From positions 62,001-126,000 of the forward strand of contig CACZJZ010000004.1 of the NCBI GenBank assembly GCA_902781655.1: a stretch of 64,000 bases of DNA, written 5' to 3'. Below the pieces are notes generated by a model that worked only from the letters and a program-made list of their open reading frames with translations, had not been told where the DNA came from and did no database searches. The translations under genes and the position numbers were made by a program. Below, one piece after another: positions 40,181-60,810 of the stretch. The DNA comes from an uncultured Lachnospiraceae bacterium. GTDB taxonomy: Bacteria; Bacillota; Clostridia; Lachnospirales; Lachnospiraceae. Numbering within the stretch: position 1 is the stretch's first letter; every line of letters starts with the position of its first letter.

Positions 40181-40223
40181 ACAAAAGAGGCCGCCCCAGA
40201 GCCCTGATTGCTCTGAGACAGCC
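40181..40223 (-). terminator. Intrinsic terminator/attenuator in front of amt
   Basis: On the minus strand a 14-bp stem (40210-40223 with 40189-40202, some G-U pairs), a seven-base loop and then TCTTTTGTTT. It lies 36 bases before the amt start, leaving no room for a separate promoter after it, so amt expression appears to depend on read-through. Confidence 0.75.
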
Positions 40224-40234
40224 CCCTTGCTGTC
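40217..40234 (-). promoter_or_regulatory. Hexaloop hairpin overlapping the amt attenuator (ANTAR-type candidate)
   Basis: On the minus strand GACAGC, loop AAGGGG, GCTGTC: a perfect 6-bp stem with a six-base loop having A at 1 and G at 4. Its 3' arm is part of the terminator 5' arm, so the two structures exclude each other. Confidence 0.5.
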
Positions 40235-40263
40235 AAAAGATCACTATTTCCTGCAGTGTTTCC

Positions 40264-41784
40264 TCAGATTTCCTTTAATGTCGTATATCCCATCAGGAAC
40301 CGGTCCACCTCCGCCGCACACTGACGGCCCTCCTCGATGGCCCACACCACCAGGGACTGTCCCCGATGGCAGTCGCCTGCCGTGAATACCTTGTCCACGG
40401 AGGTCCTGTAGTGATTTTCCTCCGTGACGATGGTCCCCCGGCCGCTGCGCGGCGCGCCGAACGCCTCGGCGGTGTACGGCTCGCACCCGACGAACCCCGC
40501 CGCGATGAGAAGCAGCTGGCAGGGAAGTTCCTTCTCGGTGCCGGGAACCTCCACCATCTGACGGTTTTCGAAACGGACCCTGACGGTCCGGATTTTCTTC
40601 AGTTCTCCCTTTTTGCTGGTGATGAATTCCTTCACTGTGGTCTCGTAGACTCTCGGATCATGGCCGAATTTGTAAATGGCCTCCTCATGCCCGTAATCGG
40701 TCTTCTTGACCAGCGGCCATTCCGGCCACGGGTTCGAGGCTCTCCGCTCCGCCGGCGGCTCCGGCATCATCTCGAGCGCGGTCACCGAACGGCATCCGTG
40801 GCGGATCACGGTCCCGATGCAGTCATTGCCGGTGTCGCCGCCGCCGACGACGACCACATCCTTGTCCTTTGCGCTGATAAAACCGCCCGCTCTCTGCAGG
40901 TCCGCCGCTCCTCTGCCGGAAATACCCAGCAGCGCATGCGTCGTGGATTTCAGAAAATCGACAGCAAAATACACGCCCCTGATCTCGGACGGCTGCGATA
41001 TCCCGCTGCCTGTCACCGTCCCGGAGAGTCTGCGCGGCTCCTTTGCGCCACAGGCCAGGATCACGGCGTCGTACTCCTTCTTTAACTCCTCCGCGGTCAC
41101 GTCCACACCGACGTTGACGCCGCACCGGAATACCACACCCTCCTCCTCCATCAGCTTCTGGCGCCGGAGAACAACACGCTTGTCGAGCTTCATGTTCGGG
41201 ATGCCGTACATCAGCAGGCCGCCGATCCGGTCCTCCCGCTCGAATACCGTGACGCTGTGCCCGCGGTGATTCAGCTGGTCAGCCGCCGCGAGTCCGGCCG
41301 GGCCGCTGCCGACGATCGCGATTTTCTTGCCGCTGCGGACCGCCGGAATACGCGGCCTGATGTATCCGTTGGTAAACGCCGTCTCGATCAGAAAGCGCTC
41401 ATTATCATGCACAGTCACCGGATCGTCATACTCGCCGCACACGCAGGCCTTCTCGCACAGCGACGGACAGACCCGCCCGGTAAACTCAGGAAAATTGCTC
41501 GTCTTCAGAAGCCGGGACAGCGCGTGCTGATCGTTTCCGCGGTAGATCTGGTCGTTCCATTCCGGAATCAGATTGTGAAGCGGGCAGCCGGTCACCATCC
41601 CATGCAGCTTCATCGCCGACTGGCACAGCGGAACGCCGCAGTTCATGCATCGCGCTGCCTGCTCCCGGCGCTCCTCCGCGCCAAGATTCGTGTGAAACTC
41701 CTCGAAGGTGCGGATTCTCTCCGCCGGCGGCACATCCGGACTGCTTACCCTCTGATATTCTAGAAACCCCGTTGGCTTTCCCAT
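40264..41784 (-). CDS. gltD: Glutamate synthase small subunit (NADPH, FAD)
   Basis: 506 residues. Supplies electrons to GltB. The N-terminal region has the two Fe-S cysteine groups (CMNCGVPLC and CPSLCEKACVCGE). FAD-binding AIVGSGPAGLAAADQLN and NADPH-binding VVVVGGGDTGNDCIG follow, then the C-terminal TAGDCHRGQSLVVWAIEEGR. ATG 41784 has AGGAG ten bases upstream. It follows gltB by 60 bases; the next downstream gene is amt, behind an attenuator-like hairpin. Confidence 0.96.
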   Translation of the reverse strand: MGKPTGFLEYQRVSSPDVPPAERIRTFEEFHTNLGAEERREQAARCMNCGVPLCQSAMKLHGMVTGCPLHNLIPEWNDQIYRGNDQHALSRLLKTSNFPEFTGRVCPSLCEKACVCGEYDDPVTVHDNERFLIETAFTNGYIRPRIPAVRSGKKIAIVGSGPAGLAAADQLNHRGHSVTVFEREDRIGGLLMYGIPNMKLDKRVVLRRQKLMEEEGVVFRCGVNVGVDVTAEELKKEYDAVILACGAKEPRRLSGTVTGSGISQPSEIRGVYFAVDFLKSTTHALLGISGRGAADLQRAGGFISAKDKDVVVVGGGDTGNDCIGTVIRHGCRSVTALEMMPEPPAERRASNPWPEWPLVKKTDYGHEEAIYKFGHDPRVYETTVKEFITSKKGELKKIRTVRVRFENRQMVEVPGTEKELPCQLLLIAAGFVGCEPYTAEAFGAPRSGRGTIVTEENHYRTSVDKVFTAGDCHRGQSLVVWAIEEGRQCAAEVDRFLMGYTTLKEI

Positions 41785-41844
41785 AAACTCTTCACTCCTG
41801 CTTTGATTCTGCCGGTTTCTCCGCGCCGCCTGGCAGCGCCCTGA

Positions 41845-44800
41845 TCACGCGATGGATCCCGAGACCTCTCTGAACGCCTCCAGCACCGCGCTGTCGTGCG
41901 GGATGCCCTGTTCCTCGTACTTGCTGATGGCGATCAGCATCTTCTGGTAATCATTCGGCACGATCTTCTTGAAGCTCGGCAGATATTCCTCGAAGTGATC
42001 GAGAATCTCGTGTCCCAGCTCCGAGTCGGTCTCCTTCACATAGTCCGTGAGAATGACATGGAGCTCGGCGATGTCGTACTTCTCCGTCACCTCCTGGAAC
42101 GAATCCATGTCCTTGTTCATTCTCCGGTACAGGCTGTGATCCGTATCCAGCACATAGGCGATGCCTCCGCTCATGCCGGCGGCAAAATTCTTGCCGGTCG
42201 GCCCGAGAATGACGGCCCGTCCGCCGGTCATATACTCAAGACCGTGGTCTCCGCATCCCTCCGCCACCGCGACGGCACCGGAATTACGGACGCAGAAACG
42301 CTCGCCCGCCCGTCCGCAGACATAAGCCTTGCCTGCCGTGGCGCCGTACAGCGCCACATTGCCGATGATGATATTTTCACTTGCCCGGAACGGCGAGGAT
42401 TTTGGCGGAACCACCACCAGTTTGCCTCCGGAAAGGCCCTTGCCGAATCCGTCGTTGGCGTCTCCGGTCAGCCTGAGCGTCAGTCCCTTGGGGATGAACG
42501 CGCCGAACGACTGTCCGCCGCCGCCCTCCGCATGGACGACAAAGCTGTCCTCGCGCAGACGATCTCCGAACTGCGCCGTGATCTCGCTGCCGAGAATCGT
42601 GCCGAACGCCCGGTCCGTGCTCGAGACCTTCAGGCTGATCTCTCCTTTCGCCTGATTCTCCGGTCCGTGCAGCGCCTTGTCAAAGGCCGGCAGTAGTTTG
42701 GACTCATCCAGCGTCTTCTCCAGATGGAAGTTGTAGACATGATCCGGATCGAAATGTCGGTCCGGAGCGTGTGCGAATTCCGGATCAAGAATGGCGGAGA
42801 GATCCACCGTCCTCGCGAACCCGGCGATCACGCCGTCGTCCTTGTATTCCTTCTTCTTCAGGCAGTCCGTGCGCCCGATCATATCGTTCAGCGTGCGGAA
42901 CCCGAGGGACGCCATGATCTCGCGGACCTCCTCCGCGATGAACCGCATAAAGTTCACGACGTATTCCGGCTTTCCGGCAAACCGCTTCCGGAGCTTCTCA
43001 TTCTGGGTCGCGATACCGACCGGGCAGGTGTCCTTCGAGCAGACCCGCATCATCATGCACCCCATGCATACAAGCGGTGCCGTGGCAAAACCAAACTCCT
43101 CCGCGCCGAGCATAGCCGCAACGACTACATCCCTGCCGGTCATCAGCTTGCCGTCCGTCTCAATGCAGACCCGGTTCCGGAGTCCGTTCTGAATCAGGCT
43201 CTGATGCGCCTCCGATACGCCGAGTTCCCACGGCAGGCCCGCGTGATGCACGGAACTGTACGGCGCCGCGCCGGTGCCGCCGTCATAGCCGGAGATCAGG
43301 ATTACCTGCGCTCCTGCCTTGGCCACGCCGCTCGCGATCGTGCCGACGCCGTCCTCCGAGACGAGCTTCACGGAGATCCGGGCACGCCGGTTCGCGTTCT
43401 TGAGATCATAGATCAGCTGCGCCAGATCCTCGATGGAATAAATATCGTGATGCGGCGGCGGCGAAATCAGGGCTACGCCTGGCGTGGAGTAGCGGATCTT
43501 CGCAACCCAGGGGTACACCTTTTTCCCGGGCAGATGGCCGCCCTCGCCAGGCTTGGCTCCCTGCGCCATCTTGATCTGGATTTCCTGCGCGCTGCCGAGA
43601 TACGCCGAGGTAACGCCGAAGCGCCCCGAGGCGACCTGCTTGATCGCGCTGTTGCGGTTCGTGCCGAACCGTGCCGGGTCCTCTCCGCCCTCGCCGGTGT
43701 TGGATTTGCCTCCGAGGGAGTTCATCGCCTCCGCCAGCGTCTCATGCGCCTCCTTCGAGATCGATCCGAAGGACATGGCTCCTGTCTTGAACCGTCGCAC
43801 GATCGATTCGACCGGCTCCACCTCCTCCAGCGGAACCGGATCCCCCGCCGGGACAAAATCCATGAGACTGCGCAGGGTGTGCGGGCGCGGCGACTCGTCA
43901 ATGCGCTTCGTGTATTCCCTGAACTGCTCAAAATTTCCAGTCCGCACCGCCTGCTGCAGCGTGATGATGGTCTCCGGACTGTAGAGGTGATCCTCCTTAT
44001 CCCGGCCGCTTCTGAGGCAGTGGAACCCGATCGAATCGAGCGTTGTGTCGGTGGAAAGGCCCAGCGGATCGAAGGCCTGATCATGACGCCATGTCACATT
44101 GTCCTGAATCTCCCGGATACCGATGCCGCCGACCCGGCTGACCGTGCCGGTGAAGTACTTGTCCATCACCTCGTCCGACAGGCCGATCGCCTCGAAAATG
44201 CGGGCTGACTGATAAGACTGAATCGTAGAGATGCCCATCTTGGCCGCGATCTTCACCACCCCGCCGAGCAGTGCCTTGTTGTAGTCCTCTATCGCGGTGT
44301 GATAGTCCTTGTCCAGAATGCCCAGATCGATCAGCTCCGCGATGCATTCATGTGCAAGGTACGGATTGATCGCCCGCGCGCCGAAGCCGAGAAGCGCAGC
44401 CATCTGATGCACATCCCGCGGCTCGCCGCTCTCCAGAATCAGCGAAATGGCGGTCCGCTTCTTCGTCCGGACCAGGTGCTGCTCCACGCTGGACACCGCC
44501 AGAAGTGCCGGGATCGGAACGTGGTTTTCATCAATGCCGCGGTCTGACAAAATGATGATGTTCTGCCCGTTCGCCGCCGCGCGGTCTACCGCGATATTCA
44601 GCTGCTCGAGCGCGCGCTCCAGCGAGGTATTTTTGTAATACAGAATCGGAATCGTCGTGGTGCGGAAGCCCGGCTGGTCGAGCGCCCGGATCTTCATGAG
44701 ATCCACGCCGGTCAGAATCGGATCGTTCACCTCCAGCACTCGGCAGTTCCCGCTCTTCTCATTGAGCAGGTCTCCATCTGAGCCGATGTACACCGTCGTG

Positions 44801-46386
44801 TCCGTCACAATCTTCTCCCGCAGGGAGTCGATCGGCGGATTGGTGACCTGCGCAAACAATTCCTTGAAATAATTGCAGAGCAGCTGATGATGGTTGTCGA
44901 TCACCGCGAGCGGCACGTCGTGTCCCATGGACACGGTCGGCTCCACGGCGTTCTCCGCCATCGGCAGGATGTCGTCGCGCACATCCTCATAGGTATAGCC
45001 GAAGACCTTGTACAACCGGTCCCGCATCTCCTGCGTGTTGGTCGGAATTTTCTTGTTCGGGATCGGGAGCTTTGACAGGTGCAGCAGATTGATATCCAGC
45101 CACTCGCCATAGGGCTGCCGCTCCGCGTAGTATCTCTTGCACTCCTCGTCAGAGATGATGCGCTTCTGCTTCGTGTCCACAAGGAGAATCCGCCCCGGCT
45201 CAAGGCGGCTCTTCTTCACGACATGCTCCGGCGCGATGTCGAGCACGCCCACCTCCGAGGACAAAATCAGCCTGTTGTCGTCCGTGATGTAGTACCGGGA
45301 CGGGCGCAGACCGTTGCGGTCGAGCGTCGCCCCGACCAGATCTCCGTCGGAGAACAGAATCGCCGCAGGTCCGTCCCACGGCTCCATCATCGTCGCGTAG
45401 TAATGGTAGAAATCCTTCCGTTCCTGATCCATGAACGTATTGTGCTTCCACGGCTCCGGAATCGTCACCATCATCGCAAGCGGCAGATCCATGCCGTTCA
45501 TATACAGGAACTCGAGCGTGTTGTCCAGCATCGCGGAATCAGAGCCTGTTTTCTGAACGACAGGATAGATTTTGTCGAGATCCTTCTCCATGATCGGAGA
45601 ATTCATGGTTTCCTCGCGGGCAAGCATACGGTCGATATTGCCGCGGATGGTATTGATCTCGCCATTGTGCGCGATCATCCGGTACGGGTGCGCGCGGTTC
45701 CAGGACGGCGTGGTGTTGGTCGAGAAACGGGAATGCACGATGGCGATCGCTGTCCGGTACGCTTCGCTCTGCAGATCCTGATAGAAGCGCCGCAGCTGGC
45801 TCACCAGAAACATTCCCTTGTAGACCACAGTGCGGGAGGACAGAGAGCAGATGTAGGTGTCCTCGGAACTCTGCTCGAATTCGCGTCTGACGACATACAG
45901 TCTGCGGTCAAACTCAATTCCCTTCTCCACGTCCTTCGGTCGTCCGATGAAGCACTGGCAGATGCAGGGCATGCAGTCCCGCGCCGGTGCGCCGAGAATA
46001 TCCGGATTGGTAGGAACCTGCCTCCAGCCGAGGAAGGGCAGTCCTTCCTTCTCCGTGATGACCTTCAGCATCCGCATGGCGAAGGTCCGTTTCAGGGTGT
46101 CCTGCGGCAGAAAGCACATTCCGATGCCGTAGTCTCCCTCGCCGAGAGACTCCGCGTCCGGAATGCCGGCCTCCTTCATCGCCCCTGCAAAGAAGCTGTG
46201 GCTGATCTGCAGCAGAATGCCGACGCCGTCGCCCACGCGACCGGTTGCATCCTTTCCTGCCCGGTGCTCCAGCTTTTCCACAATGTGCAGGGCGTCGTCC
46301 AGCACCCGGTAATCCTTATGCCCGTCGATGTTGACGATGACGCCGATGCCGCAGGCATCATGTTCTCTGATCAGTGGTCTTGCCAT
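41845..46386 (-). CDS. gltB: Glutamate synthase large subunit
   Basis: 1513 residues, full length. Converts glutamine and 2-oxoglutarate to two glutamates. A class II amidotransferase domain begins at [13 protein letters not shown] with the nucleophile Cys after a short propeptide. The central and FMN domains follow ([59 protein letters not shown]). The 3Fe-4S cysteine cluster is [22 protein letters not shown], and the C-terminal beta-helix is Gly-rich. ATG 46386 ([10 protein letters not shown]) has AAAGGAAG five bases upstream; the frame is open to 46443. Second gene of the glnN operon. Confidence 0.97.
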   Translation of the reverse strand: [1513 protein letters not shown]

Positions 46387-46410
46387 GTCTTCTTCCTTTA
46401 CAATACGGAA

Positions 46411-46467
46411 ACGGAAAGTCCCTGTGGAGGCACCGGGAAGCACCCGGCCCGCGCCTGAACTTTCCGT
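46411..46467 (-). other. Structured hairpin between glnN and gltB
   Basis: 9-bp perfect outer stem (46411-46419, 46459-46467) enclosing CCGGG...CCCGG (46433-46437, 46443-46447). No U-run follows on the minus strand, so an RNA processing or stability element is more likely than a terminator. Confidence 0.6.
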
Positions 46468-46504: not shown

Positions 46505-48622
46505 TTACCGCAGAGAGAACAGCAGCTCGCCATATGTCGGATACGGCAGATACGCCTCAGGGATGAGAGCTTCCGCCGCGTCCACATGTCTGCGGAGCTC
46601 ATCCATGTCCGCCAGAATGGTGTCGTGATAGTACTTTGCCACATGGAGAACATCCGCGTCAGACTCCGCTCGCTTCGTATCCACTCCCAGCTTTGTCAGA
46701 GCGGCATCGATCGCATCCGCCTCGGTGTCGAGCGTGGACAGCACGTCCGTCTCGACCGTACACTTCGCGGACGGAAGGACCGCCTTCTTGCCGCTCATCT
46801 CCTCCGTCAGCGCCTTTTCATAGGATACGAGTCCGGAGATGAAATCCTTGCGGACCATTTCCTGCATGGTCAGTGACTCGATGTGCACCGTCTTGCTGTA
46901 ATTCTCAAGGAAGATCTCATAGCGGCTCTCCAGCTCACTCCTGGTGAAGACCTTGTGCTTCGTGAAGAGCTCGACGCTCTTCTCCGAGATAAGATGCGGC
47001 ATTGCCTCCGGCAGGGACTTGAGGTTATAGAGGCCTCTCTTCTCCGCCTCAGCAACCCATTCGTCGGTGTAGCCGTTGCCATTGAACAGCACCTTCTTGT
47101 GCTCGTCCAGCAGCTCCTTGAGCAGCTTCTTCAGCTCCGCGTCAAAATTCTCCTTCGGGACATCCTTCAAGGCGTCGTAGATGTCGGACAGTGCCTCTGC
47201 AACCGCAGTATTCAACACAATGTTGGGGTCTGCGACCGACAGTGCGGAACCCGGCATACGGAACTCGAACTTGTTACCCGTGAAAGCGAACGGCGAGGTC
47301 CGGTTGCGGTCCGTGGTGTCCCGCATGATATGCGGCAGCACTGCGGCGCCCATGCCCATGGGAGTTTTGCCGGTTCCCTTGAATGCCGTTCCGTCGTCGA
47401 TGCTCTTCAGCACAGCGGCGAGCTCATCGCCGACAAAGATCGAGATGATGGCCGGCGGCGCCTCGTTTGCGCCCAGACGGTGATCGTTGCCCGCCGTGGC
47501 GACCGAACAGCGGAGCAGATCCGCGTATTCATCCACCGCGGTGATAACCGCCATCAGGAAGACCAGGAACTGCATATTTTGGTCCGGTGTCGCGCCCGGG
47601 TCGAGCAGATTGACGCCGGTGTCCGTGATAATGGACCAGTTGTTGTGCTTGCCGGAACCGTTGATGCCCTCAAACGGCTTCTCATGAAGCAGGCAGGCGT
47701 AATTATGCTTGTCCGCGACCTTCTTCATCATCTCCATCGTCAGCTGGTTGTGATCTACCGCGACGTTGGCCGTCTCGAAGACCGGTGCGAGTTCATGCTG
47801 GGACGGCGCGACCTCGTTGTGCTTGGTCTTGGCCGGAACGCCGAGCTTCCACAGCTCCGTGTCGAGATCATGCATGTATTCGGACACCTTCGGCTTGAGA
47901 ACGCCGAAGTAATGATCCTCCATCTCCTGCCCCTTCGGAGCCGGCGCGCCGATCAGCGTACGGCCGCAGAGCAGCAGATCCTTTCTTTCCTTATACAGAT
48001 CCTTGTCTATCAGGAAATATTCCTGCTCGGAGCCCACGGTGGTGTCCACGTGGGAGACCTCATCAATGCCGAGGAGATGAAGCACCTTGACCGCCTCGGT
48101 GCTGAGTGCCTCCATGGAGCGGAGCAGGGGCGTCTTCTTGTCCAGCGCCTCGCCGCCGTAGGAGCAGAATGCGGTCGGAATGTACAACGTACCGTCCTTG
48201 ATGAAGGCCGGCGAGGACGGATCCCATGCCGTATATCCTCTGGCCTCGAACGTCGCGCGCAGTCCGCCGGACGGGAAGCTGGAAGCATCCGGTTCGCCCT
48301 TCACCAGCTCCTTGCCGGAAAAGTCGAGAACCACGCCGCCGTCCCCGGTGGGAGAAATGAAGCTGTCGTGCTTTTCTGCCGTCAGGCCTGTCATCGGCTG
48401 GAACCAGTGCGTATAGTGCGTCGCGCCGTGCTCGATCGCCCAGTTCTTCATGACAGCTGCGACCGTGTTGGCGACATCCAGTTCCAGATGCGTTCCGTTC
48501 TTGATGGTCTGATGCACCGCACGGTACACATCCTTAGGAAGGCGTTCCTTCATGACCCTGTCATTGAAGACCAGGCTGCCGTACAGTTCGGGGATGCTCT
48601 TCGTGCTTCCTGTCTCTTCCAT
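46505..48622 (-). CDS. glnN: Glutamine synthetase type III
   Basis: 705 residues, the usual size of the large GSIII class found in Bacteroidetes and Clostridia. Makes glutamine from glutamate, ammonia and ATP. Motifs: THYTHWFQPMTGLTAEKHDSF and FSGKELVKGEPDASSFPSGGLRATFEARGYTAWD at the N-terminus, GSEQEYFLID (metal-binding Glu), KHNEVAPSQHELAPVFE, EKPFEGINGSGKHNNWS (His of the active site), and PFAFTGNKFEFRMPGSA. ATG 48622 follows GAGGAGG. First gene of glnN-gltB-gltD-amt, behind a consensus promoter and an attenuator-like leader. Confidence 0.96.
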   Translation of the reverse strand: MEETGSTKSIPELYGSLVFNDRVMKERLPKDVYRAVHQTIKNGTHLELDVANTVAAVMKNWAIEHGATHYTHWFQPMTGLTAEKHDSFISPTGDGGVVLDFSGKELVKGEPDASSFPSGGLRATFEARGYTAWDPSSPAFIKDGTLYIPTAFCSYGGEALDKKTPLLRSMEALSTEAVKVLHLLGIDEVSHVDTTVGSEQEYFLIDKDLYKERKDLLLCGRTLIGAPAPKGQEMEDHYFGVLKPKVSEYMHDLDTELWKLGVPAKTKHNEVAPSQHELAPVFETANVAVDHNQLTMEMMKKVADKHNYACLLHEKPFEGINGSGKHNNWSIITDTGVNLLDPGATPDQNMQFLVFLMAVITAVDEYADLLRCSVATAGNDHRLGANEAPPAIISIFVGDELAAVLKSIDDGTAFKGTGKTPMGMGAAVLPHIMRDTTDRNRTSPFAFTGNKFEFRMPGSALSVADPNIVLNTAVAEALSDIYDALKDVPKENFDAELKKLLKELLDEHKKVLFNGNGYTDEWVAEAEKRGLYNLKSLPEAMPHLISEKSVELFTKHKVFTRSELESRYEIFLENYSKTVHIESLTMQEMVRKDFISGLVSYEKALTEEMSGKKAVLPSAKCTVETDVLSTLDTEADAIDAALTKLGVDTKRAESDADVLHVAKYYHDTILADMDELRRHVDAAEALIPEAYLPYPTYGELLFSLR

Positions 48623-48663: not shown

Positions 48664-48670
48664 TCTTTTA

Positions 48671-48720
48671 CAAAGAAAGGCGCTGCAAAATCCATCCTGC
48701 CTATGGATTTTCCAAGCGCC
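48671..48720 (-). terminator. Attenuator-type hairpin in the glnN leader
   Basis: GGCGCT/AGCGCC outer stem (48715-48720, 48679-48684) with an inner 9-bp AAAATCCAT/ATGGATTTT stem (48703-48711, 48687-48695), followed on the minus strand by TTTCTTTG. It forms 10 to 50 bases after the predicted transcription start, well before the glnN start codon. Confidence 0.7.
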
Positions 48721-48727
48721 GTTGCTT
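48714..48727 (-). promoter_or_regulatory. Hexaloop hairpin at the 5' end of the glnN leader (ANTAR-type candidate)
   Basis: On the minus strand AAGC, loop AACGGC, GCTT: a 4-bp stem with a six-base loop, A at 1 and G at 4. Its 3' arm overlaps the outer arm of the leader terminator. A second loop in the terminator region, AUCC[AUAGGCA]GGAU, keeps A1 and G4 but has seven bases. Confidence 0.45.
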
Positions 48728-48736
48728 TATGCGCCT

Positions 48737-48764
48737 ATTATACACACTCATCCCGGAGTGTCAA
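48737..48764 (-). promoter_or_regulatory. Consensus sigma-70 promoter of the glnN operon
   Basis: On the minus strand TTGACA (48759-48764), a 16-base spacer, TATAAT (48737-48742). Both hexamers are perfect. Predicted start near 48730, leader about 108 bases. A strong promoter fits control by attenuation rather than by activation. Confidence 0.88.
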
Positions 48765-48794: not shown

Positions 48795-48823
48795 TTGACA
48801 CCGGCGTCCACCCGCATCATAAT
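48795..48823 (+). promoter_or_regulatory. Promoter of asnB
   Basis: TTGACA (48795-48800), a 17-base spacer and CATAAT (48818-48823). It faces away from the glnN promoter with 30 bases between the two -35 boxes. Predicted start near 48830; leader about 157 bases. Confidence 0.78.
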
Positions 48824-48885: not shown

Positions 48886-48935
48886 AAGCGGCAATGGCGC
48901 CGGTTATTTTGTTGTGCCATTGCCGCTTTTATTTT
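48886..48935 (+). terminator. Intrinsic terminator (attenuator) in the asnB leader
   Basis: Perfect 13-bp stem (48886-48898 with 48916-48928), a 17-base loop and a T-rich tail (TTATTTT). It lies between the asnB promoter and start codon, so it must be bypassed for expression. The sequence GCGCCGGTT occurs both upstream (about 48840) and in the loop, and GCCGGC between them could pair with either. Confidence 0.85.
48889..48902 (+). promoter_or_regulatory. Hexaloop hairpin overlapping the asnB attenuator (ANTAR-type candidate)
   Basis: CGGC, loop AATGGC, GCCG: a 4-bp GC-only stem with a six-base loop, A at 1 and G at 4. It uses most of the terminator 5' arm, so it would act as an antiterminator if stabilised. 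No second consensus hexaloop was found upstream. Confidence 0.45.
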
Positions 48936-48986
48936 GGTTCTGCCGTGTGACCTGCGGTCAGTGCCGTGAAAAAGGAGAGCTTACCC

Positions 48987-50573
48987 ATGTGTTCCATTCT
49001 TGCGTACTGCGGAAAATCCGCGGACATTGAAACCGTTCAGAAGATGCTTCAGGAAACGACCTCCAGAGGTCCGGACGATTCCCGGATTCTGAATACAGGC
49101 AATGGATACCTTGGCTTCAACCGGCTTGCCATCATGGGACTGACTGCATCCGGCATGCAGCCGTTCACGCTGAACGGCAGTGCCGTCGTCTGCAACGGCG
49201 AGATCTACGGCTTCCGTCCGCTGCGGGACTATCTGAAGCTGAACGGCTATACCTTCGCCAGCGACAGCGACTGCGAAATTCTTCTTCCTTTATATGAGAA
49301 GGTCGGCGTATCCATGTTCCGCATGCTCGACGCCGAGTTCGCCCTCGTCCTCTACGACGCCAGACAGAACACCTACATCGCCGCCCGCGATCCGATCGGC
49401 ATCCGTCCTCTCTATTACGGATATGATAAGAATCAGGTGATCGTGTTCGCCTCCGAGCCGAAGAACCTGATCGGCGTCTGTGACCGCATCATGCCCTTCC
49501 CTCCCGGCCATTATTATAAGGATGGCCGCTTCATCTGCTACCGGGACATGAGCGATGTGGAATACTACTCCCACGACGACATGGATACCATCAGCCGGAA
49601 CATTCATGACCGCCTGATGCGCGGCATCGGGAAGCGCCTCGACGCCGACGCGCCGGTAGGCTTCCTGCTCTCCGGCGGCCTTGATTCCTCCCTGGTCTGC
49701 GGCGCCGCCGCCAAAATTTTCGACAAGCCGCTCGAGACATTCTCTGTCGGCATGGACATTGATGCCATAGACCTCAAGTACGCACGCGAGGTCGCGGAGT
49801 ATATCCACAGCAATCATCACGAGGTCATCATCTCCCGGGACGATGTCATTCGGGCTCTAGATCCCGTCATCCACGCGCTCGGAACCTATGACATCACCAC
49901 CATCCGCGCCTCCATCGGCATGTACCTCGTCTGCAAATGGATTCATGAGAACACCGATATCCGGGTCCTCCTGACCGGCGAAATCTCCGACGAGCTGTTC
50001 GGATACAAATATACGGATTTTGCACCGGATGCCGAGGCCTTCCAGAAGGAGGCCGAGAAGCGCATCCGCGAGCTTCACATGTACGATGTGCTCCGCGCCG
50101 ACCGCTGTATCTCCGTGAACTCCCTTGAGGCGCGCGTACCGTTCGGCGATCTCGATTTTGTCGATTACGTCATGCACATCGATCCGGAAAAGAAGCTCAA
50201 CCGCTACGGCATCGGCAAGTATCTGCTCCGCCACGCATTCGAGGAGGACGCGCTCATCCCGCACAACATCCTGATGCGTGAGAAGGCCGCGTTCTCCGAT
50301 GCCGTCGGCCACAGCCTCCGCAACGACATCATCGACTACGCAAACGCCCATTACACCGACGGGGAATTCGAAGAGAAGCGCCGCAGGTACACGCACGCCC
50401 AGCCCTTCACGAAGGAATCGCTGCTCTACCGCGAGATCTTTGAAAAGTACTACCCGGGACAGAGCGAGATGGTCGTCGGCTTCTGGATGCCGAACCGCGA
50501 CTGGGCCGGCCTCGAGAACGTCAACGATCCCAGCGCCCGCGTCCTCTCCAACTACGGCGCTTCCGGCGTCTGA
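48987..50573 (+). CDS. asnB: Asparagine synthetase B (glutamine-hydrolysing)
   Basis: 528 residues. Converts aspartate to asparagine with glutamine and ATP. It begins MCSILAYCG with Cys2 as the amidotransferase nucleophile, then RGPDDSRI, FNRLAIMG and VVCNGEIYG. The synthetase domain has the PP-loop LLSGGLDSSLVCG, LLTGEISDELFGYKY and LEARVPFGDLDFVDYVM. ATG 48987 has AAGGAG nine bases upstream; starting at 48966 would bury the catalytic Cys. Divergent from glnN and likely co-regulated with it. Confidence 0.96.
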   Translation: MCSILAYCGKSADIETVQKMLQETTSRGPDDSRILNTGNGYLGFNRLAIMGLTASGMQPFTLNGSAVVCNGEIYGFRPLRDYLKLNGYTFASDSDCEILLPLYEKVGVSMFRMLDAEFALVLYDARQNTYIAARDPIGIRPLYYGYDKNQVIVFASEPKNLIGVCDRIMPFPPGHYYKDGRFICYRDMSDVEYYSHDDMDTISRNIHDRLMRGIGKRLDADAPVGFLLSGGLDSSLVCGAAAKIFDKPLETFSVGMDIDAIDLKYAREVAEYIHSNHHEVIISRDDVIRALDPVIHALGTYDITTIRASIGMYLVCKWIHENTDIRVLLTGEISDELFGYKYTDFAPDAEAFQKEAEKRIRELHMYDVLRADRCISVNSLEARVPFGDLDFVDYVMHIDPEKKLNRYGIGKYLLRHAFEEDALIPHNILMREKAAFSDAVGHSLRNDIIDYANAHYTDGEFEEKRRRYTHAQPFTKESLLYREIFEKYYPGQSEMVVGFWMPNRDWAGLENVNDPSARVLSNYGASGV

Positions 50574-54744: not shown

Positions 54745-54765
54745 TCTACTGGCTCGTCGCCTTCA

Positions 54766-54803
54766 CAAAAAGGCGGCTGCTCCCGAAGAGCTGACGCCGC
54801 CTT
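54766..54803 (-). terminator. Intrinsic terminator of the group B hydrogenase gene
   Basis: AAGGCGGC/GCCGCCTT arms (54796-54803, 54770-54777) with an inner stem, then a T-run on the minus strand; 45 bases after the stop. Confidence 0.88.
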
Positions 54804-54847
54804 ACATTCCCTTGCATTATTTTGCTGCTCTGGCTACAGCCCGGCAG

Positions 54848-56326
54848 TTATACTTCCTCTCCGCGATGCATCCGCACGTGCTCCGCGTCCTGCATCTTCA
54901 GATTCTCATGCACCTCTCGCTTGTCCGCCCGACCAATCATCGCATCGCGGTCCTTGGTGAGCTCCTGCAGAGTTCTCTGGCGGCTCGGTCCCTGGACACA
55001 GCCGCCCTCGCAGGCCATGCCTTCCATAAATTTCTCCGGCAGCCGTCCCATCTTCATCAGCGTGAGCGCCGTCTTGCATTCCGCCGCGCCATTGGCGACC
55101 TTGACCTTCAGATTTGATGTGTCGACGCCCCGCTCCTTCATGCACTGCAGCACAGCGCCCGCGACACCGGCGCTGTTGCCGAACCGCTTGCCGAAGACCG
55201 ATGCCTGCTGTGTGAACTCCTCCACCGGCTCCAGATCAATTCCCTTGCCCTGCAGCATCTGGAACGCCTCGTCGAACGTCAGTACATAGTCCGCGTTGCC
55301 GGAAATGCTGGTGTCAAGGATCTCGCTCTTCTTTGCCTGGCAGGGTCCGATAAACACCGTAATGGCGTCAGGCTCTTTTTCCTTGATCATGCGGGAGACC
55401 GCGCACATCGGGCTGACTGTCGTGGAAATCTTGTCATTCAGCTCCGGGAAATGCTTGTGAATCATATTGACGAACGCGGGGCAGCAGGATGTCGTCTTGC
55501 CCTCTCCGGCTTCCATCGCCTCAGCCCACTCGTCCGCCTCGGCTGCGGCCGTCAGATCGCCGCCCAGTCCTACCTCGAGCAGATCGGCAAAGCCGGCCTT
55601 TTTGAGTGCCGCTCTCCAGGAATCCACCGTGATATCCTTGCCATACTGCCCCTCGACGGCGGGTGCGATCATGGCGTAGACCTTCTCCCCGGCGCGGATC
55701 ATATTGATGACATCGACGATGAAGGTCTTCGCGCCGATCGCGCCGAACGGGCACGCATGAATGCAGTGGCCGCACTGGATGCACTTGCTCTCATCGATCT
55801 GGCAGAGTCCGGATTCCGGATCCATCGTGATTGCGCCGACCGGGCAGGCCTTCTTGCAGGGACGGACCAGATCCACAATGGCTCCGTAAGGGCAGGCGCG
55901 GGAGCACATGCCGCACTCCTTGCACTTCGCCGGATCAATATGCGCGCGGTTCTTGTTTCCGTCGTGTGAGAAGGATATCGCGCCGAACCGGCAGGAATTA
56001 TAGCAGGCTTGTCCGAGACAGCCGTGACAGTTGTCCGTCACCGTGTAGGAGGACAGCGGGCAGTCGTCGCACGCCGCCGGGATGACCTGCACAATATTGG
56101 TTGTGTCCTTCGTTCCCGGGCACATGCCGCGTGCCATCCGGACTCTCTCCCGGATGATCTCCCGCTCGCGGTAGATGCAGCAGCGATATTGCGCGTGCGG
56201 TCCCGGGATCATCTCCTCCGGCAGATTCTCTTTCTTTTCCTCGAGTTCGCCGTTCCATGCGAGTTTCGCCACTTCATAGAACACCCTCTGGGTGATGTCG
56301 AAGGTTGTCTTGTCATTCGTAACCAT
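54848..56326 (-). CDS. [FeFe] hydrogenase, group B, monomeric with ferredoxin-type domains
   Basis: 492 residues, cytoplasmic. The N-terminal part has a Cys-rich region (ACDDCPLSSYTVTDNCHGCLGQACYNSC) and 4Fe-4S motifs CKECGMCSRACP and CIQCGHCIHACP. The H-cluster domain has the three signatures: TSCCPAFVNMI, IGPCQAKKSE and EGMACEGGCVQGP. The arrangement fits group B enzymes of Clostridia, which evolve or oxidise hydrogen with ferredoxin; direction is not settled. ATG 56326 has AAGGAGG upstream. It has its own promoter overlapping a Rex-like site, and a terminator. It lies just downstream of the sensory hydrogenase operon. Confidence 0.93.
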   Translation of the reverse strand: MVTNDKTTFDITQRVFYEVAKLAWNGELEEKKENLPEEMIPGPHAQYRCCIYREREIIRERVRMARGMCPGTKDTTNIVQVIPAACDDCPLSSYTVTDNCHGCLGQACYNSCRFGAISFSHDGNKNRAHIDPAKCKECGMCSRACPYGAIVDLVRPCKKACPVGAITMDPESGLCQIDESKCIQCGHCIHACPFGAIGAKTFIVDVINMIRAGEKVYAMIAPAVEGQYGKDITVDSWRAALKKAGFADLLEVGLGGDLTAAAEADEWAEAMEAGEGKTTSCCPAFVNMIHKHFPELNDKISTTVSPMCAVSRMIKEKEPDAITVFIGPCQAKKSEILDTSISGNADYVLTFDEAFQMLQGKGIDLEPVEEFTQQASVFGKRFGNSAGVAGAVLQCMKERGVDTSNLKVKVANGAAECKTALTLMKMGRLPEKFMEGMACEGGCVQGPSRQRTLQELTKDRDAMIGRADKREVHENLKMQDAEHVRMHRGEEV

Positions 56327-56465
56327 AAACTCCTCCTTGGAATGCGGTTGCTTCTGCAAAACGCAAAGTCTGCTCCGCCGCGCCTGCTCAGACGCCGGTG
56401 CATTCCATTCCCGGCATGGCGGCGTTTATTGCTTCCGGGCGTCTGCCCGGCCTGTTTCCACAGGT

Positions 56466-56483
56466 ATGATAATTGATTAACAA
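56466..56483 (-). promoter_or_regulatory. Rex-like redox operator overlapping the hydrogenase -10 box
   Basis: Minus-strand TTGTTAATCAATTATCAT. The Rex consensus TTGTTAA-N4-TTAACAA is matched exactly in the first half and at five of seven positions in the second. Overlap with the -10 box would let NAD-bound Rex block transcription and NADH relieve it. Confidence 0.5.
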
Positions 56484-56494
56484 TCTTCCTTCAA
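56466..56494 (-). promoter_or_regulatory. Promoter of the group B hydrogenase
   Basis: Minus-strand TTGAAG (56489-56494), a 17-base spacer, TATCAT (56466-56471). Leader about 130 bases, with a CCGGGC/GCCCGG hairpin. Confidence 0.65.
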
Positions 56495-56571
56495 GCGGAA
56501 AGCGGCTGTCCCGCTGTACATATTTCTGAACAAAGGCGGACAACCGTTCATCTGTCAGAGACACTGGTCTG

Positions 56572-57753
56572 CTAGTACAAATGCAGTTCAGTCGGCCGAC
56601 CGATTGCCCTGAGCGCATCTGTCAGCTGCCTCGTCAGATTCTGGCGCATGCCCAGCTCCAGCGGCAGATCCGGATTCTGATAGGCGGCGTTCACCGCCGT
56701 GCCAACATACAGCACTACGCTCGTGCACTCCTCGATGAACACCCGGGCGATCCGCGCCGCCGCGTTTGGCGCATCCAGCTTGCGGAAGAAATCCCGGTTC
56801 ACCCTGCTCGTGTCCGCGTACTCCCGGATGAGGCGGATCACCTCCGCCAGCGTGAGTACGCCCTCCGTCACCAGATCGATGCCCTCGATCTCTCCCATCG
56901 GCGGAATGTCCGCGTCCTCGTAATCCAGAGACACCTGCAGCGGTCGTCCGAGTACACGGGACACAATCGTCGCGCTCGTCCCTCCGGACACAATCCGGGT
57001 CACACTGTCATCCCCGGACATGAACTCCCGCACCATTTTCTCGTCGTCGTCCGGATTTTTGGCCGGTCCCGTCATAAGGTGCACGACCTTCTCCTCTGTC
57101 ACGCGGATGCAGGCGACCGTGGTATCATCCCCCGGCCTTCCGTCGTACAGCTCGCTGCAGGCATCACAGAGCCGGATAGCCTGCCGCATCGGCGACTTCC
57201 CTTTCTTCCAGCTCTTCAGGGCAAAATCCGCGATCTCCTCCCACGGCCATCCGAAGCTGTTCTTCTGTCCGACGCCGGCATGAATCGTCCCGTCGCTCAT
57301 CAGAAGAAAGGTGTCCCCGGTTTTCACCGTGAACCGGTAATCATTGACTACTTTCCCATGCGCGACACGCTCATGATGCGGAATCCGGAGAACCCTTCCG
57401 TCCCGGATAAAGACGCACTCCGGATTCTCATACTCAATCAGCGTCGCCCGCCCGTCGTGGAAAATCTGGAGCACCGTGAAGGTCGAATAGGATACATGCG
57501 TCACCGGATCGTTGGGAAGGGTATCCACCACCGTCTCCACACACTCGTCAAGGTGTGCGCCCTCCTCCAGCATTCTGGCAAAAATCTGGCTTGTCAGCGT
57601 CGACAGCATGTTGGCGCGCACGCCGCTGCCCATACCGTCCGCCAGCACCACAATATCCGAATCCCTCCGGTGCACGATCTGCACACGGTCGCCGCAGAGA
57701 ATTTCGCCGTAGTGGTTCAGGCTCTTATATGCGATTTCCGTCGTGACACTCAT
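56572..57753 (-). CDS. SpoIIE-type PP2C serine phosphatase
   Basis: 393 residues. The N-terminal approximately 220 residues are a PP2C/SpoIIE phosphatase domain: GDRVQIVHRRDSDIVVLADGMGSGVRAN (metal-binding Asp-Gly), FLLMSDGTIHAG and GRPGDDTTVACIRV. The C-terminal approximately 160 residues (DDSVTRIVSGGTSATIVSRVLGRPL onward) form a separate, unassigned domain. ATG 57753 has GGAGG four bases upstream; the frame is open to 57795. It follows the sensory hydrogenase by 54 bases. Such phosphatases are regularly encoded with group C hydrogenases and are thought to transmit their signal; the target protein is unknown. Confidence 0.88.
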   Translation of the reverse strand: MSVTTEIAYKSLNHYGEILCGDRVQIVHRRDSDIVVLADGMGSGVRANMLSTLTSQIFARMLEEGAHLDECVETVVDTLPNDPVTHVSYSTFTVLQIFHDGRATLIEYENPECVFIRDGRVLRIPHHERVAHGKVVNDYRFTVKTGDTFLLMSDGTIHAGVGQKNSFGWPWEEIADFALKSWKKGKSPMRQAIRLCDACSELYDGRPGDDTTVACIRVTEEKVVHLMTGPAKNPDDDEKMVREFMSGDDSVTRIVSGGTSATIVSRVLGRPLQVSLDYEDADIPPMGEIEGIDLVTEGVLTLAEVIRLIREYADTSRVNRDFFRKLDAPNAAARIARVFIEECTSVVLYVGTAVNAAYQNPDLPLELGMRQNLTRQLTDALRAIGRPTELHLY

Positions 57754-57807
57754 GCTGCCTCCGGCCCGCTCTCCGGAAAGCCTTGCCTGCTTCATCCCGC
57801 AGACGGC

Positions 57808-59766
57808 TTATTCCTTCTTCTGATACTTTTCCACGATGTGATATTTTTTTACCGGATTTGCCGGATTGCGCTTTTCAGCCGCCACATCGAGATTCAGTCC
57901 GTCAAGGCGGACAGAACTGACAGTATGCTGACCGGCCGGCTCCGCTGTGCCGCTCTCTGTGCTCTCCACCGTCTGGCCATCCATGCCGTCGCCCTCCGCG
58001 CGGATGGAATCGCACAGCCTCGTCAGGGTTGTCTTCGTCTCCGCCGTGGTTTCTCCCAGCAGGGAAGCGATCTTCTGCGCCGTGATCATCTGCTCCCGGA
58101 TGACCTTGCCCGCCAGATTCATATAATGCAGACGGTTCTCATATTCCTCGCGCGCCTTCTTCTCCTGTCCGGTGATGTCCGTGATCGTCATCAGGACACA
58201 ATCCTGCTTCGGAATATAGACGATGTTCTGCAGGGTGATCAGCCCGTAGGCCGGATAGGATACCTTACAGCCGTGTACGCCCGTTTCCGTCTCAAAGACG
58301 CGCTGCACGCCGGACGGATCGATGAGATCGCCAAGCTTCCGGGTCAGGGCGTCGGCTCTGGAGACGCCGAAAAATTTTTCCCCGATATCGGAGTACTCGA
58401 GAATCTGCAGATCGCGGCTCACCATAATCACGGCATTGGGACTTTCCTGGAGAATCATATTCGCCATGGATTCCGCCTTCTGGTGCATGTACGGAATACA
58501 CATGTCGAGCTCCGCTTTCCCCTGAAAGACCGCAACTGCCTTATCGCGGCAGGAGCGGTATCCGCAGGCGCCGCAGTTCAGCTCATCCTCCGGTTTGAAT
58601 TTCCCGATTTTGGCGAGAATCTCCCGGATCTGCTCCTCCGTCGGAACCGGATCGTGCAGGGACCGGTCCTCGAACGTCTTGGAGAAATCCAGGCCTTCCA
58701 TCAGCCTGCGCACCGTTTCCTCCGATGCCGCCTGCTTGGGGATCGCCTCGCTCATATCCAGCTTGATCTTATATTTGTAGACGTCCCTGTCGTCCACCGC
58801 GGGCCCCTTGATGCAGCCGTCCGCGCACATATTCATCTCAATGAAGCAGCCGGACACGCCGCCCGCTTCCATATCGTGGCACAGGTCGATGCAGTCCTGT
58901 GCGCCGTGTACATAGAATTTGCGGTAATGGCTCCACGTGCCGTCCGGGCGCTGCGCATCCCAGACGCCGCTCCTGGCCTGCTCCTCCGGGTGATTGAGCG
59001 TCTCACTGAACAGAGTGGCCCGAACGGATTTCAGGACTCCGCCCGTCACCGGATAGAGCCGGTTGATACTCGGGTCCATGGCGAACGGCGTGTCGTCGCA
59101 CGCGCCGATGTCGATATGCTTCTCCGCGAGCCAGCTCTCCAGATCCTCGAAGGTGAGGACCGCATCAATATATCCGGCGTGGCGCGGATCGCGGGCCTCC
59201 CTCTTTTTGGCGATGCAGGGGCCGGCGAACACGACCTTCACGCCTGGCATTCTCCGCTTGATCAGCATCCCGGACGCAATCATCGGGGAGACGACCGGTG
59301 CCAGATACTTCACCAGCGACGGATGGTACATCTCGATCAGGTTATTCACGCTCGGGCAGCAGGTCGTGATGATGTTCTCCATCCTCCCCTCGCGGATCAG
59401 GCGGACATACTCCCTCGTCACCACGGCGGCTCCCTCGGACGTCTCCGCCACATCGGCAAATCCCAGCCGCATCATCGCATTCCGCACCTGGCCGATCGTC
59501 CGATATTTGAGCAATCCCGCATAAGAAGGAGCCAGCGTGAGCACCACCTTCTGCCCCGCAGCGATCATCGCCTTCACCTCTCCCAGCTCGGAGGACAAAG
59601 TCTTGGCCGACTGCGGGCACACCTGAAGACAGCGGCCACACAGGATACAGTGGCTGCCGATGATCTCCGCCCGCTCGTTCCGGATTGCGATGGCCTTCAC
59701 GGTACAGTTGCGGACACACTTATAGCAGTGCTTGCACTTGGTGGAATTAAACTCAATGATTCTCAT
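57808..59766 (-). CDS. Sensory [FeFe] hydrogenase, group C, with PAS domain
   Basis: 652 residues. Two 4Fe-4S clusters at the N-terminus (CKHCYKCVRNC, CILCGRCLQVCP). H-cluster signatures: TTCCPSVNN, AGPCIAKKRE and EMNMCADGCIKGPA; the first lacks the Ser-Cys-Cys of catalytic groups, as in group C. Then a CGACGYRSCRDKAVAV Fe-S motif (about residue 395) and a PAS domain (ESPNAVIMVSRDLQILEYSDIGEKFFG) ending in a charged tail. This is the HydS architecture, thought to sense hydrogen or redox state. No ribosome site precedes ATG 59766; eight bases separate it from the upstream gene, so it is probably translationally coupled. Confidence 0.93.
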   Translation of the reverse strand: MRIIEFNSTKCKHCYKCVRNCTVKAIAIRNERAEIIGSHCILCGRCLQVCPQSAKTLSSELGEVKAMIAAGQKVVLTLAPSYAGLLKYRTIGQVRNAMMRLGFADVAETSEGAAVVTREYVRLIREGRMENIITTCCPSVNNLIEMYHPSLVKYLAPVVSPMIASGMLIKRRMPGVKVVFAGPCIAKKREARDPRHAGYIDAVLTFEDLESWLAEKHIDIGACDDTPFAMDPSINRLYPVTGGVLKSVRATLFSETLNHPEEQARSGVWDAQRPDGTWSHYRKFYVHGAQDCIDLCHDMEAGGVSGCFIEMNMCADGCIKGPAVDDRDVYKYKIKLDMSEAIPKQAASEETVRRLMEGLDFSKTFEDRSLHDPVPTEEQIREILAKIGKFKPEDELNCGACGYRSCRDKAVAVFQGKAELDMCIPYMHQKAESMANMILQESPNAVIMVSRDLQILEYSDIGEKFFGVSRADALTRKLGDLIDPSGVQRVFETETGVHGCKVSYPAYGLITLQNIVYIPKQDCVLMTITDITGQEKKAREEYENRLHYMNLAGKVIREQMITAQKIASLLGETTAETKTTLTRLCDSIRAEGDGMDGQTVESTESGTAEPAGQHTVSSVRLDGLNLDVAAEKRNPANPVKKYHIVEKYQKKE

Positions 59767-59774
59767 GGGATGAT

Positions 59775-60023
59775 TCAGGCGCTGACTCTGGTCATGATTT
59801 CATTTTGGAAAAAGTCCTCGGTAGTCTCCGGTGACAGCGAGTACAGGGTATCGCCGATGGTCACGCAGACAGCATGCTGGCAGTTCCCGGTGCAGAAGGA
59901 TCCGCTGAGGGACACCTTATCCTCCAGATGGTTCTCCGCGATCAGCTTCTTGAGGCGTGCGATCACCTCCTTGGACCCCTTCATATGGCAGGCACTTCCA
60001 ATACAGATCGATACGTTCAGCAT
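59775..60023 (-). CDS. NuoE-like thioredoxin-fold [2Fe-2S] ferredoxin
   Basis: 82 residues. Two cysteine pairs of the NuoE/TRX-like [2Fe-2S] fold: CIGSACHMKG and CTGNCQHAVC. It would pass electrons to or from the sensory hydrogenase encoded next. ATG 60023 has AAGGAGG eight bases upstream. First gene of the ferredoxin-HydS-PP2C operon. Confidence 0.9.
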   Translation of the reverse strand: MLNVSICIGSACHMKGSKEVIARLKKLIAENHLEDKVSLSGSFCTGNCQHAVCVTIGDTLYSLSPETTEDFFQNEIMTRVSA

Positions 60024-60143
60024 AGGTATTTCCTCCTTGCAGGATTACGTTTTGATATACCGCCTCTGTCTTCCGGGCGAAGCACAAGAACTTCCCCCTT
60101 TTTCCGCAGGCGGTCCGGTACAGCTAAGCAGATTTTACCACAG

Positions 60144-60168
60144 AAAAAGCGGGAAAAACATTTCCCGC
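60144..60168 (-). terminator. Intrinsic terminator after the ANTAR gene
   Basis: GCGGGAAA/TTTCCCGC arms (60161-60168, 60149-60156), a four-base loop and a T-run on the minus strand. It separates the glnA-ANTAR operon from the hydrogenase operon, whose likely -10 is an extended TGG-TAAAAT near 60135. Confidence 0.82.
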
Positions 60169-60231
60169 CTTCAAAATGCACTTTGTTGCCTGCTGTGAAT
60201 GCAGCAGCGGCATCCGGCTGCCCGGTCCGGA

Positions 60232-60810
60232 TCAGTCCAGCTCGCGGAGCACCTGCTGCGCCACCTCTCGCTTCGTGAGCGAACGATTCATTGCCTCGGT
60301 CTCCAGATAGCGGTGCGCTGTCTCCTCTGTCATTCCCTTCTTTTCAATCAGCAGGCATTTTGCCCTGGTGATCAGCCCCAGCTCCTCCATCCGGCGGCTG
60401 AGACGGTCGTTGTCCGCCCGAAGTTCCGCAATCCGGCGATGCGCTGTCAGCAGGAGATTCGCACTCTGCACCAGGATCTGCCCGCGCACCGGTCTTGCGA
60501 GGACGAAAACGCCGGCGCCGCGTGTCCGGTACACCGCGCGGTCATAGACATCCGCCGGGACCAGAACGATCACCGGAACCTCGTGACTTGCGATATCCAC
60601 CGCCGACTCCACACCGAACTCGTCCACCGCCGGTGTATTCACGATGAGTGCCATCTCCCGCTTTTCGAGGAGCTTCTGTCTGGCCTGCGCCATGGAAGTC
60701 GCCTGCACGGTCGTCTGAAACACCCCGGCCAGCACCTCCCGGATTGAGCTGTATGTAGATGTGCTCTGCGTCACGATCACCGCGCCGCATCTATCCCTGC
60801 CAGTCATCAT
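60232..60810 (-). CDS. ANTAR-domain RNA-binding antiterminator with pseudo-receiver
   Basis: 192 residues. Residues 8-120 are receiver-like but lack the phospho-acceptor: the strand MALIVNTP has Asn58 where Asp is expected, and the conserved Lys before Pro is Arg106 (VLARPV). A coiled segment (123-142) leads to the ANTAR three-helix RNA-binding domain (about 140-190; MEELGLITRAKCLLIEKKGMTEETAHRYLETEAM). ANTAR proteins bind paired hexaloop hairpins and prevent transcription termination. It begins three bases after the glnA stop with only a weak ribosome site, so it is translationally coupled to glnA. Likely targets are the nitrogen leaders in this window. Confidence 0.9.
   Translation of the reverse strand: MMTGRDRCGAVIVTQSTSTYSSIREVLAGVFQTTVQATSMAQARQKLLEKREMALIVNTPAVDEFGVESAVDIASHEVPVIVLVPADVYDRAVYRTRGAGVFVLARPVRGQILVQSANLLLTAHRRIAELRADNDRLSRRMEELGLITRAKCLLIEKKGMTEETAHRYLETEAMNRSLTKREVAQQVLRELD

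Follow-up and report, generated by a model that had tools for sequence, protein, structure and literature searches.

The stretch analysed here, called the window below, comprises 64,000 nucleotides (nt) of an uncultured Lachnospiraceae genome (contig CACZJZ010000004.1, positions 62,001 to 126,000), in which the leaders of glnN (type III glutamine synthetase, GSIII), amt (ammonium transporter) and asnB (asparagine synthetase) carry short hairpins with a six-base loop, or hexaloop, overlapping intrinsic terminators, and in which an ANTAR protein is encoded directly after glnA. Comparison with related genomes points, with a probability of roughly 0.8, to a regulon that governs the supply and use of glutamine by ANTAR antitermination at a single hexaloop. 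An ANTAR regulon for nitrogen genes had been suggested in an earlier note on this DNA, and it is supported at the sequence level by covariation in the leaders, by co-occurrence with the ANTAR gene, by the same gene set in relatives and by three conserved RNA-contact residues, with the window's own asnB as an uncertain member.

The window leaders were read directly and also scanned by script on both strands. The glnN, amt and asnB leaders (3/3) all have A at loop position 1 and G at loop position 4, and the hexaloop hairpin overlaps a terminator in each, as the note had described. Hexaloops of the form AAnGGn on a stem of at least 4 base pairs (bp) occur eight times on both window strands and four times with a closing C-G pair; three of these four lie inside intrinsic terminators, namely those of the three leaders, while the other 255 loop identities at positions 1, 2, 4 and 5 average 0.25 such cases each, with a maximum of 2. 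No Rfam family matches the window at its gathering score, and at E<=5 over positions 38000-63000 only three families appear, all of them unrelated.

On the minus strand, glnN (46505..48622; PF12437, PF18318, PF00120) is preceded by a predicted promoter, TTGACA-16-TATAAT (48737..48764), which matches the consensus and places the start near 48730, so that the hairpin AAGC-AACGGC-GCTT (48714..48727, loop A1 at 48723), the proposed antiterminator, lies in roughly the first 17 nt of the RNA expected from this start. Its terminator (48720-48679 plus a U tract, together 48672..48720), which shows covariation in relatives, has a 5' arm that begins at loop position 4 and takes in the 3' arm of the hexaloop; hairpins orthologous to this one are found in relatives, and glnN alone in the window fits the 5'-terminal single-hairpin layout fully. 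The amt hairpin, GACAGC-AAGGGG-GCTGTC (40217..40234, minus strand, loop A1 at 40228), is not 5'-terminal and sits between genes of the gltBD cluster, in which gltB (glutamate synthase large subunit, 41845..46443, from a profile search) and gltD (small subunit, 40264..41784, named from position and sequence, with the order kept in genome G091) precede amt (38351..40144, fused to a PII domain; PF00909, PF00543), all on the minus strand. The intercistronic terminator here (40228-40184 plus a U tract, 40176..40228, minus strand) has 19 bp and the loop AATCAGG. Support for this leader comes from G091, which among the 120 family genomes is nearest in GSIII identity and has GGACAGC-AATGGG-GCTGT with a terminator at the equivalent position.

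The asnB leader, on the plus strand, is the weakest of the three, because its terminator (48886-48928 plus a U tract, 48886..48935) uses the 5' arm and loop of the hexaloop rather than its 3' arm, and because the hairpin CGGC-AATGGC-GCCG (48889..48902, loop A1 at 48893), again not 5'-terminal, lies 69 nt downstream of the predicted -10 box of TTGACA-17-CATAAT (48795..48823, a consensus match only). The overlap of hexaloop and terminator that the note had claimed thus holds in all three leaders, with a different geometry in asnB, whose membership is uncertain. The gene itself, for a glutamine-dependent asparagine synthetase (48966..50573, profile search), has an alternative ATG at 48987, closer behind the ribosome-site-like AAGGAG.

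The same arrangement recurs in relatives. Among the 30 best GSIII loci, one per genome with the own genome included, out of 120 family genomes searched, 24 have a hexaloop with a terminator, and 21 of these 24 have a TTGACN promoter with a -10 box ending 13-20 nt before loop A1; in a similar scan of the named relatives' GSIII loci with enough upstream sequence, the combination was found in 43/79 and not in 36. A covariance model built from 26 leaders, in which the terminator was paired and the hexaloop left unpaired, matches 92/120 family genomes at E<=0.05. Ninety of the 98 best family matches were examined, the other 8 being glnN leaders already in the set, and an A1G4 hexaloop with at least 3 bp is present in 86 of them and missing in 4. 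Nine nitrogen or glutamine genes follow 75 of the 90 matches (glnN 27, amt 15, gltB 9, purF 8, asnB 7, pyrG 6, and carA, glnA and dapL 1 each), and 15 precede other genes; the names purF, pyrG and carA come from reading the translations, with one example of each checked against Pfam. Since gltB, asnB, purF, pyrG and carA encode glutamine amidotransferases, the regulon would cover both the making and the spending of glutamine, and the extent given in the note (GSIII, glutamate synthase, Amt-PII and asparagine synthetase) is widened in relatives to purF, pyrG and carA. At the level of the class, the hexaloop is present in 30/30 best matches, 26 of them outside the family, with glnN or amt within 1.4 kb downstream in 27 and within 400 nt in 18. 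Four hexaloop matches precede genes without an obvious glutamine tie (L112, L113, L140 and L152, in G081, G026, G021 and G031): the gene after L113 encodes a circularly permuted ATP-grasp protein by Pfam and that after L152 looks alike by eye, and the gene after L112 has no Pfam match over its first 330 amino acids (aa), with that after L140 alike by eye.

Covariation was assessed in three alignments of 26, 90 and 25 leaders, the first picked by a scan that required a stem and therefore partly circular, the other two picked by models that contained the arm's sequence but no pairing in the hexaloop stem. In all three, both sides change at 5/6 pairs of the hexaloop stem, the doubly changed cells and the covariation score beat 500/500 shuffles, and the stem cells are paired in 81-87% against 18-57% in slid controls; exchanges such as TAAAGC/GCTTTG, ACAGC/GCTGT and AAGGC/GTCTT illustrate this, and the innermost pair never varies. 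Lack of covariation in related genomes had been named in advance as grounds for dropping the idea, and the hexaloop stem does covary. Terminator pairs are formed in 97-99% of cells (98.6% over the 90 leaders), and the terminator shares alignment columns with the 3' arm of the hexaloop and changes along with it, a three-way constraint of the kind expected of mutually exclusive structures. Median folding energies are -3.2 kcal/mol for the hexaloop hairpin and -22.6 for the terminator. In the loop, A2 and G5 are, like A1 and G4, fixed in 115/115 leaders and position 3 varies; as a leader was included only with A1 and G4, and AAAGGC is favoured by the search models, position 3 is the sole position not subject to this selection.

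These 115 distinct leaders (90 family and 30 class matches, minus 4 without a hexaloop or upstream sequence and 1 duplicate) also bear on whether the element has one hexaloop or two. The ANTAR target motif has been described as dual (PMC3369931, PMC8164766, PMC8934654), and the note had taken the second hexaloop to be missing or seven bases long, an explanation to which the 7-nt loops starting with A in the window's amt (AATCAGG) and glnN (AGGCAGG) leaders lend some support. By inspection of the relatives' alignments, these loops are the tips of terminators and are not conserved. A second A1G4 hexaloop upstream occurs in 12/115 leaders, against 10.1 +/- 2.8 in shuffles, and downstream A1G4 ranks 8th of 16 loop identities over the 115 leaders, so that neither is enriched above chance; two tandem hexaloops joined by a short linker, as in classical targets, do not characterise these 115 leaders.

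The position of the hairpin likewise leaves little space for a partner. Promoters were scored leader by leader, a column-wise upstream profile being smeared by variable promoter spacing, and at least 10/12 consensus bases are matched in 88/115 leaders (3.2% in shuffles). Among these 88, the -10 box ends 10-19 nt before loop A1 in 81, with a peak at 13-16. Transcription starts about 7 nt after the -10 box, and with this spacing only a few bases would separate the 5' end from the stem. The 12 nt and the linker that a P1 hairpin requires do not fit upstream of it, given the predicted starts, in 81/115 leaders, or 81/88 of those with a strong promoter. In some GSIII leaders (L014, L020 and L030) the whole unit of hexaloop and terminator does occur twice in a row, which is a further point for a dual target and would mean two checkpoints in series. 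A classical dual-hexaloop target with a degenerate or seven-base second loop is judged very unlikely, and the motif is a single hexaloop that is predicted to be mostly 5'-terminal in relatives.

Under this single-hexaloop reading, each target RNA would present one short C-G-closed AAnGGn hairpin, in most relatives at the extreme 5' end, the 3' side of which would usually serve as the 5' arm of an intrinsic terminator ending about 40-60 nt into the RNA. On unbound RNA the long terminator would win and transcription would stop, whereas the active ANTAR protein, from the gene after glnA, would bind the emerging hexaloop, hold the weak hairpin and block the terminator, leading to expression of glnN-gltBD, amt-PII and probably asnB. 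We infer the binding of protein to RNA, its activating effect and the signal; since no phosphorylatable Asp is present in the receiver-like part of the protein, the signal is most likely glutamine or nitrogen status, relayed by the GlnA homologue next door.

The distribution of the leaders supports a role for the ANTAR gene. In the window this gene (60232..60810, minus strand) directly follows glnA, as the note had stated, and is the sole ANTAR match in the 2.76-Mb genome. Model matches at E<1e-3 occur in 67/105 ANTAR-positive and 0/15 ANTAR-negative family genomes (p=1.3e-6), and in 45/81 against 0/15 with training genomes excluded (p=2.4e-5), and in the class the ANTAR gene is found in 48/51 leader-positive genomes against 145/291 overall (p=1.3e-13), all of these p-values overstating independence since the genomes are related. 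In G091 the gene cluster that holds glnN and amt also includes the ANTAR gene. Transcripts can be stabilised by hairpins at their 5' ends, and the leaders could accordingly be constitutive or differently regulated attenuators, in which the hairpin stabilises the mRNA or tunes termination without ANTAR. Some model matches are indeed mere terminators, among them those to contigs C43, C11 and C7 found in the own genome with model R1, which were rejected, and the 4/90 family matches without a hexaloop. Such attenuators would leave unexplained why position 3 is free while the stem and the A1 and G4 needed by ANTAR are kept, why the leader distribution follows the ANTAR gene, and why that gene is clustered with glnN and amt in G091, and they are considered unlikely. 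As a separate observation, the 97%-complete, ANTAR-negative genome G062 has a hexaloop, ACGC-AAAGGG-GCGT, with a terminator before its GSIII gene (L406).

The ANTAR protein of the window consists of a degenerate receiver-like N-terminal part and a C-terminal ANTAR domain (PF03861 match of 56.8 bits against a cut-off of 27.3, E=1.9e-15), and it matches the solved chains 1s8n and 6wsh (EutV) as well as AmiR. The residues corresponding to the EutV RNA contacts K149, E160 and M172 are kept in 31/31 family and 15/15 glnA-linked class proteins, and the position of EutV Y164 holds His in 27 and Phe in 4 of the 31 family proteins, with His also in AmiR. EutV R142 and K143 are kept as R and K in 28/28 class proteins; at R142, K143 and Y164 the window protein has L, G and H. 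The phospho-accepting Asp of the receiver is present in 0/31 family proteins (N 5, G 22, A 1, S 3), the window protein having Asn, and because this position holds N, G, A or S in 31/31, the protein is probably not switched by a kinase. In the 15 glnA-linked class proteins the position holds N in 5, D in 5, G in 3 and E in 2.

A possible source of the signal is the adjacent glnA (60814..62022, minus strand), which encodes a 402-aa homologue of type-I glutamine synthetase (GSI). The E-flap, for which a role in glutamine synthetase (GS) has been described (PMC9249791), is remodelled in this protein, which has Lys in place of the catalytic flap Glu in a flap one residue shorter, and in which two residues next to the active site, Asn in NSYKRL and Ser in GSG, differ as well. 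Eleven active-site positions were compared; the window GlnA keeps the other 10 and, with Lys for the flap Glu, lacks the full set of an active GSI. Of the 103 ANTAR-linked GSIs of the family, 102 were examined; 64 of these show such changes and 45 have lost the flap Glu, against changes in 0/12 unlinked GSIs and 0/15 ANTAR-linked GSIs elsewhere in the class. The 12 unlinked controls (of 15, without G057:C96, G054:C37 and G075:C30) are mostly of a distant 474-505-aa type. The 15 class proteins serve better for comparison, although some of them are closely related to one another and two lack the first positions through truncation. By parsimony on the GS tree, loss of the flap Glu requires 14 changes, though G091 GlnA keeps Glu in its shortened flap.

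The association of the two genes is close. A type-I GlnA stands directly upstream in 103/107 ANTAR loci of the family; among the 15 ANTAR-negative genomes, some of which are incomplete (G064 61%, G020 67%), no GSI was found in 13 and the 475-aa type in the other two. The own genome has two GS genes, for GSIII and the ANTAR-linked GlnA, and a type-III match is present in 119/120 genomes, that of G083 being so weak that it is probably a type-I gene. These patterns suggest a GS-like sensor paired with a pseudo-receiver antiterminator, in which GlnA may hold or release the ANTAR protein. That GlnA is instead an ordinary or altered-substrate enzyme unconnected to ANTAR control is given about even odds: all 11 residues are kept in 38/102 family and 15/15 class ANTAR-linked GlnAs, G091 retains the flap Glu, GS relatives with other substrates exist, and the loss of residues may reflect relaxed constraint, since nearly every genome has a type-III match. 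The tight linkage to the ANTAR gene and the rarity of GSI where that gene is absent speak against a plain enzyme, for which keeping a gene with a damaged active site would also be unusual. Tentatively, and with a likelihood placed at around one in three, Lachnospiraceae would sense glutamine through a GS homologue that is losing or has lost catalysis and that acts as gatekeeper of a kinase-free ANTAR antiterminator; by way of single 5'-terminal hexaloops, the pair would switch operons that make glutamine and operons that spend it.

Several results weigh against a single-hexaloop ANTAR regulon. In the own genome, a search with model R2 gives only the glnN leader and one plain terminator, missing amt despite its place in the training set, amt scores only 17.8 bits (E=4) with model R1, and the asnB leader is found by neither. 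The E<1e-3 cut-off was chosen after the matches had been seen; at E<=0.05 the split is 87/105 against 5/15 genomes (p=1.5e-4), a weakening as expected if plain terminators leak in. Below 1e-3, 38/105 ANTAR-positive family genomes have no match, and three leader-positive class genomes have no detected ANTAR gene. In a weak test by script, GSIII leaders with an AAnG hexaloop and terminator were found in 2/13 ANTAR-negative and 3/7 ANTAR-positive cases, one of the two negatives being G-U-closed with 3 bp (p=0.10 when counted as 1/13). The plain number of doubly changed pairs in the 90-leader set is not above shuffles (422/500 reach it), and the outer two stem pairs are often open (in 52 and 33 of the 90 leaders). 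Transcript starts were predicted from the promoter consensus, the family does not conserve EutV R142 (R in 5/31) or K143 (K in 11/31), and the EutV system that has been studied needs two hexaloops. For EutV, the R142A variant binds 8-fold and K143A/K147A 5-fold more weakly, and both hexaloops are called obligatory in vivo, for reasons that the authors themselves ask about (PMC8934654).

The genes around glnA and the ANTAR gene are arranged in a run in which dapL (LL-diaminopimelate aminotransferase, TIGR03542; 62009..63307, minus strand) overlaps glnA and follows the 3' part of purF (63332..64000, minus strand), with purF and the upstream pyrG extending past the window end. In the leader of this pyrG-purF-dapL-glnA-ANTAR run, outside the window near position 129000 of contig C4 (L157), a hairpin TGAC-GATGGT-GTCA was seen by eye, which has G rather than A at loop position 1 and adjoins a terminator-like repeat; it may be a self-control site that has been altered or is decaying. 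In G067 the pyrG gene has GGTGAC-AAAGGT-GTCA in its leader. Downstream of the ANTAR gene (54848-59766), on the strand of glnA and ANTAR, are genes for an [FeFe]-hydrogenase-like protein that weakly matches PAS, for a phosphatase of the SpoIIE type and for another hydrogenase-like protein.

A glnA-nitR neighbourhood is presumably present in Clostridium saccharobutylicum as well. NitR of this organism is, as here, an ANTAR-family protein proposed to antiterminate GS and glutamate synthase genes, in that case on nitrogen limitation (PMC6316151), and an antiterminator role has been suggested for an ANTAR gene in a GS-glutamate synthase cluster of C. thermocellum (PMC4676874). ANTAR control of nitrogen genes is already known (PMC3369931, PMC6316151). 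In Desulfotomaculum and Pelobacter, too, PII, ammonium transporter and glutamate/glutamine synthase genes lie behind ANTAR motifs, which were predicted with a model requiring two hexaloops (PMC3369931). The eut leaders of Enterococcus faecalis and their regulator EutV share with the present system the ANTAR domain, the A1/G4 hexaloop and its overlap with the 5' arm of the terminator (PMC3369931, PMC8934654), and the loop and closing bases found here fit the eut 13-mer AGCAANGRRGCUY, which overlaps terminators (PMC3369931). The present system differs in having one hexaloop rather than two, mostly at the extreme 5' end, and a protein with no phospho-Asp, no conserved R142/K143 and His or Phe at Y164. 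One unpartnered hexaloop is also described for EutX RNA and for M. tuberculosis RNAs, which in some cases depart from the dual motif, as a sequestering RNA or as ribosome-site or 5'-untranslated-region sites (PMC8934654), whereas the hexaloop here would compete with a terminator behind a moving polymerase.

Control of an ANTAR protein by a ligand-sensing partner has precedents in AmiC-AmiR and NasS-NasT (PMC8934654, PMC3795266), and AmiR shares the pseudo-receiver and the His at the Y164 position; the partner here would differ in being a GS homologue. In Bacillus, where glnR lies in the GS operon, GS acts with GlnR and TnrA, which bind DNA (PMC9249791), whereas here GS would be paired with an antiterminator that binds RNA, and its catalytic residues are often altered. 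Within the open literature, no paper on single-hexaloop leaders or on a GS-like ANTAR partner was found beyond PMC8934654, and as far as searched, the single-hexaloop terminator-coupled leaders across Clostridia, their extension to purF, pyrG and carA and the altered residues of the proposed GlnA partner are new.

The authors of the 2022 EutV structure paper ask why, if one hexaloop is bound by a dimer, the second should be required; they expect sites with a single hexaloop where no transcribing polymerase imposes a time limit, call for bioinformatic work on such sites and mention single-hexaloop candidates only away from terminators (PMC8934654). The numerous natural leaders described here, each coupling one hexaloop to a terminator, make this question directly testable. 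Which signal drives an ANTAR protein that has no phospho-site is a further question, to which the linked GlnA suggests an answer that can be tested. If the proposed role of GlnA is true, Lachnospiraceae, a family common in guts and rumens, would use a third type of GS-based nitrogen sensor beside those of GlnR and TnrA, one that acts on RNA and not on DNA.

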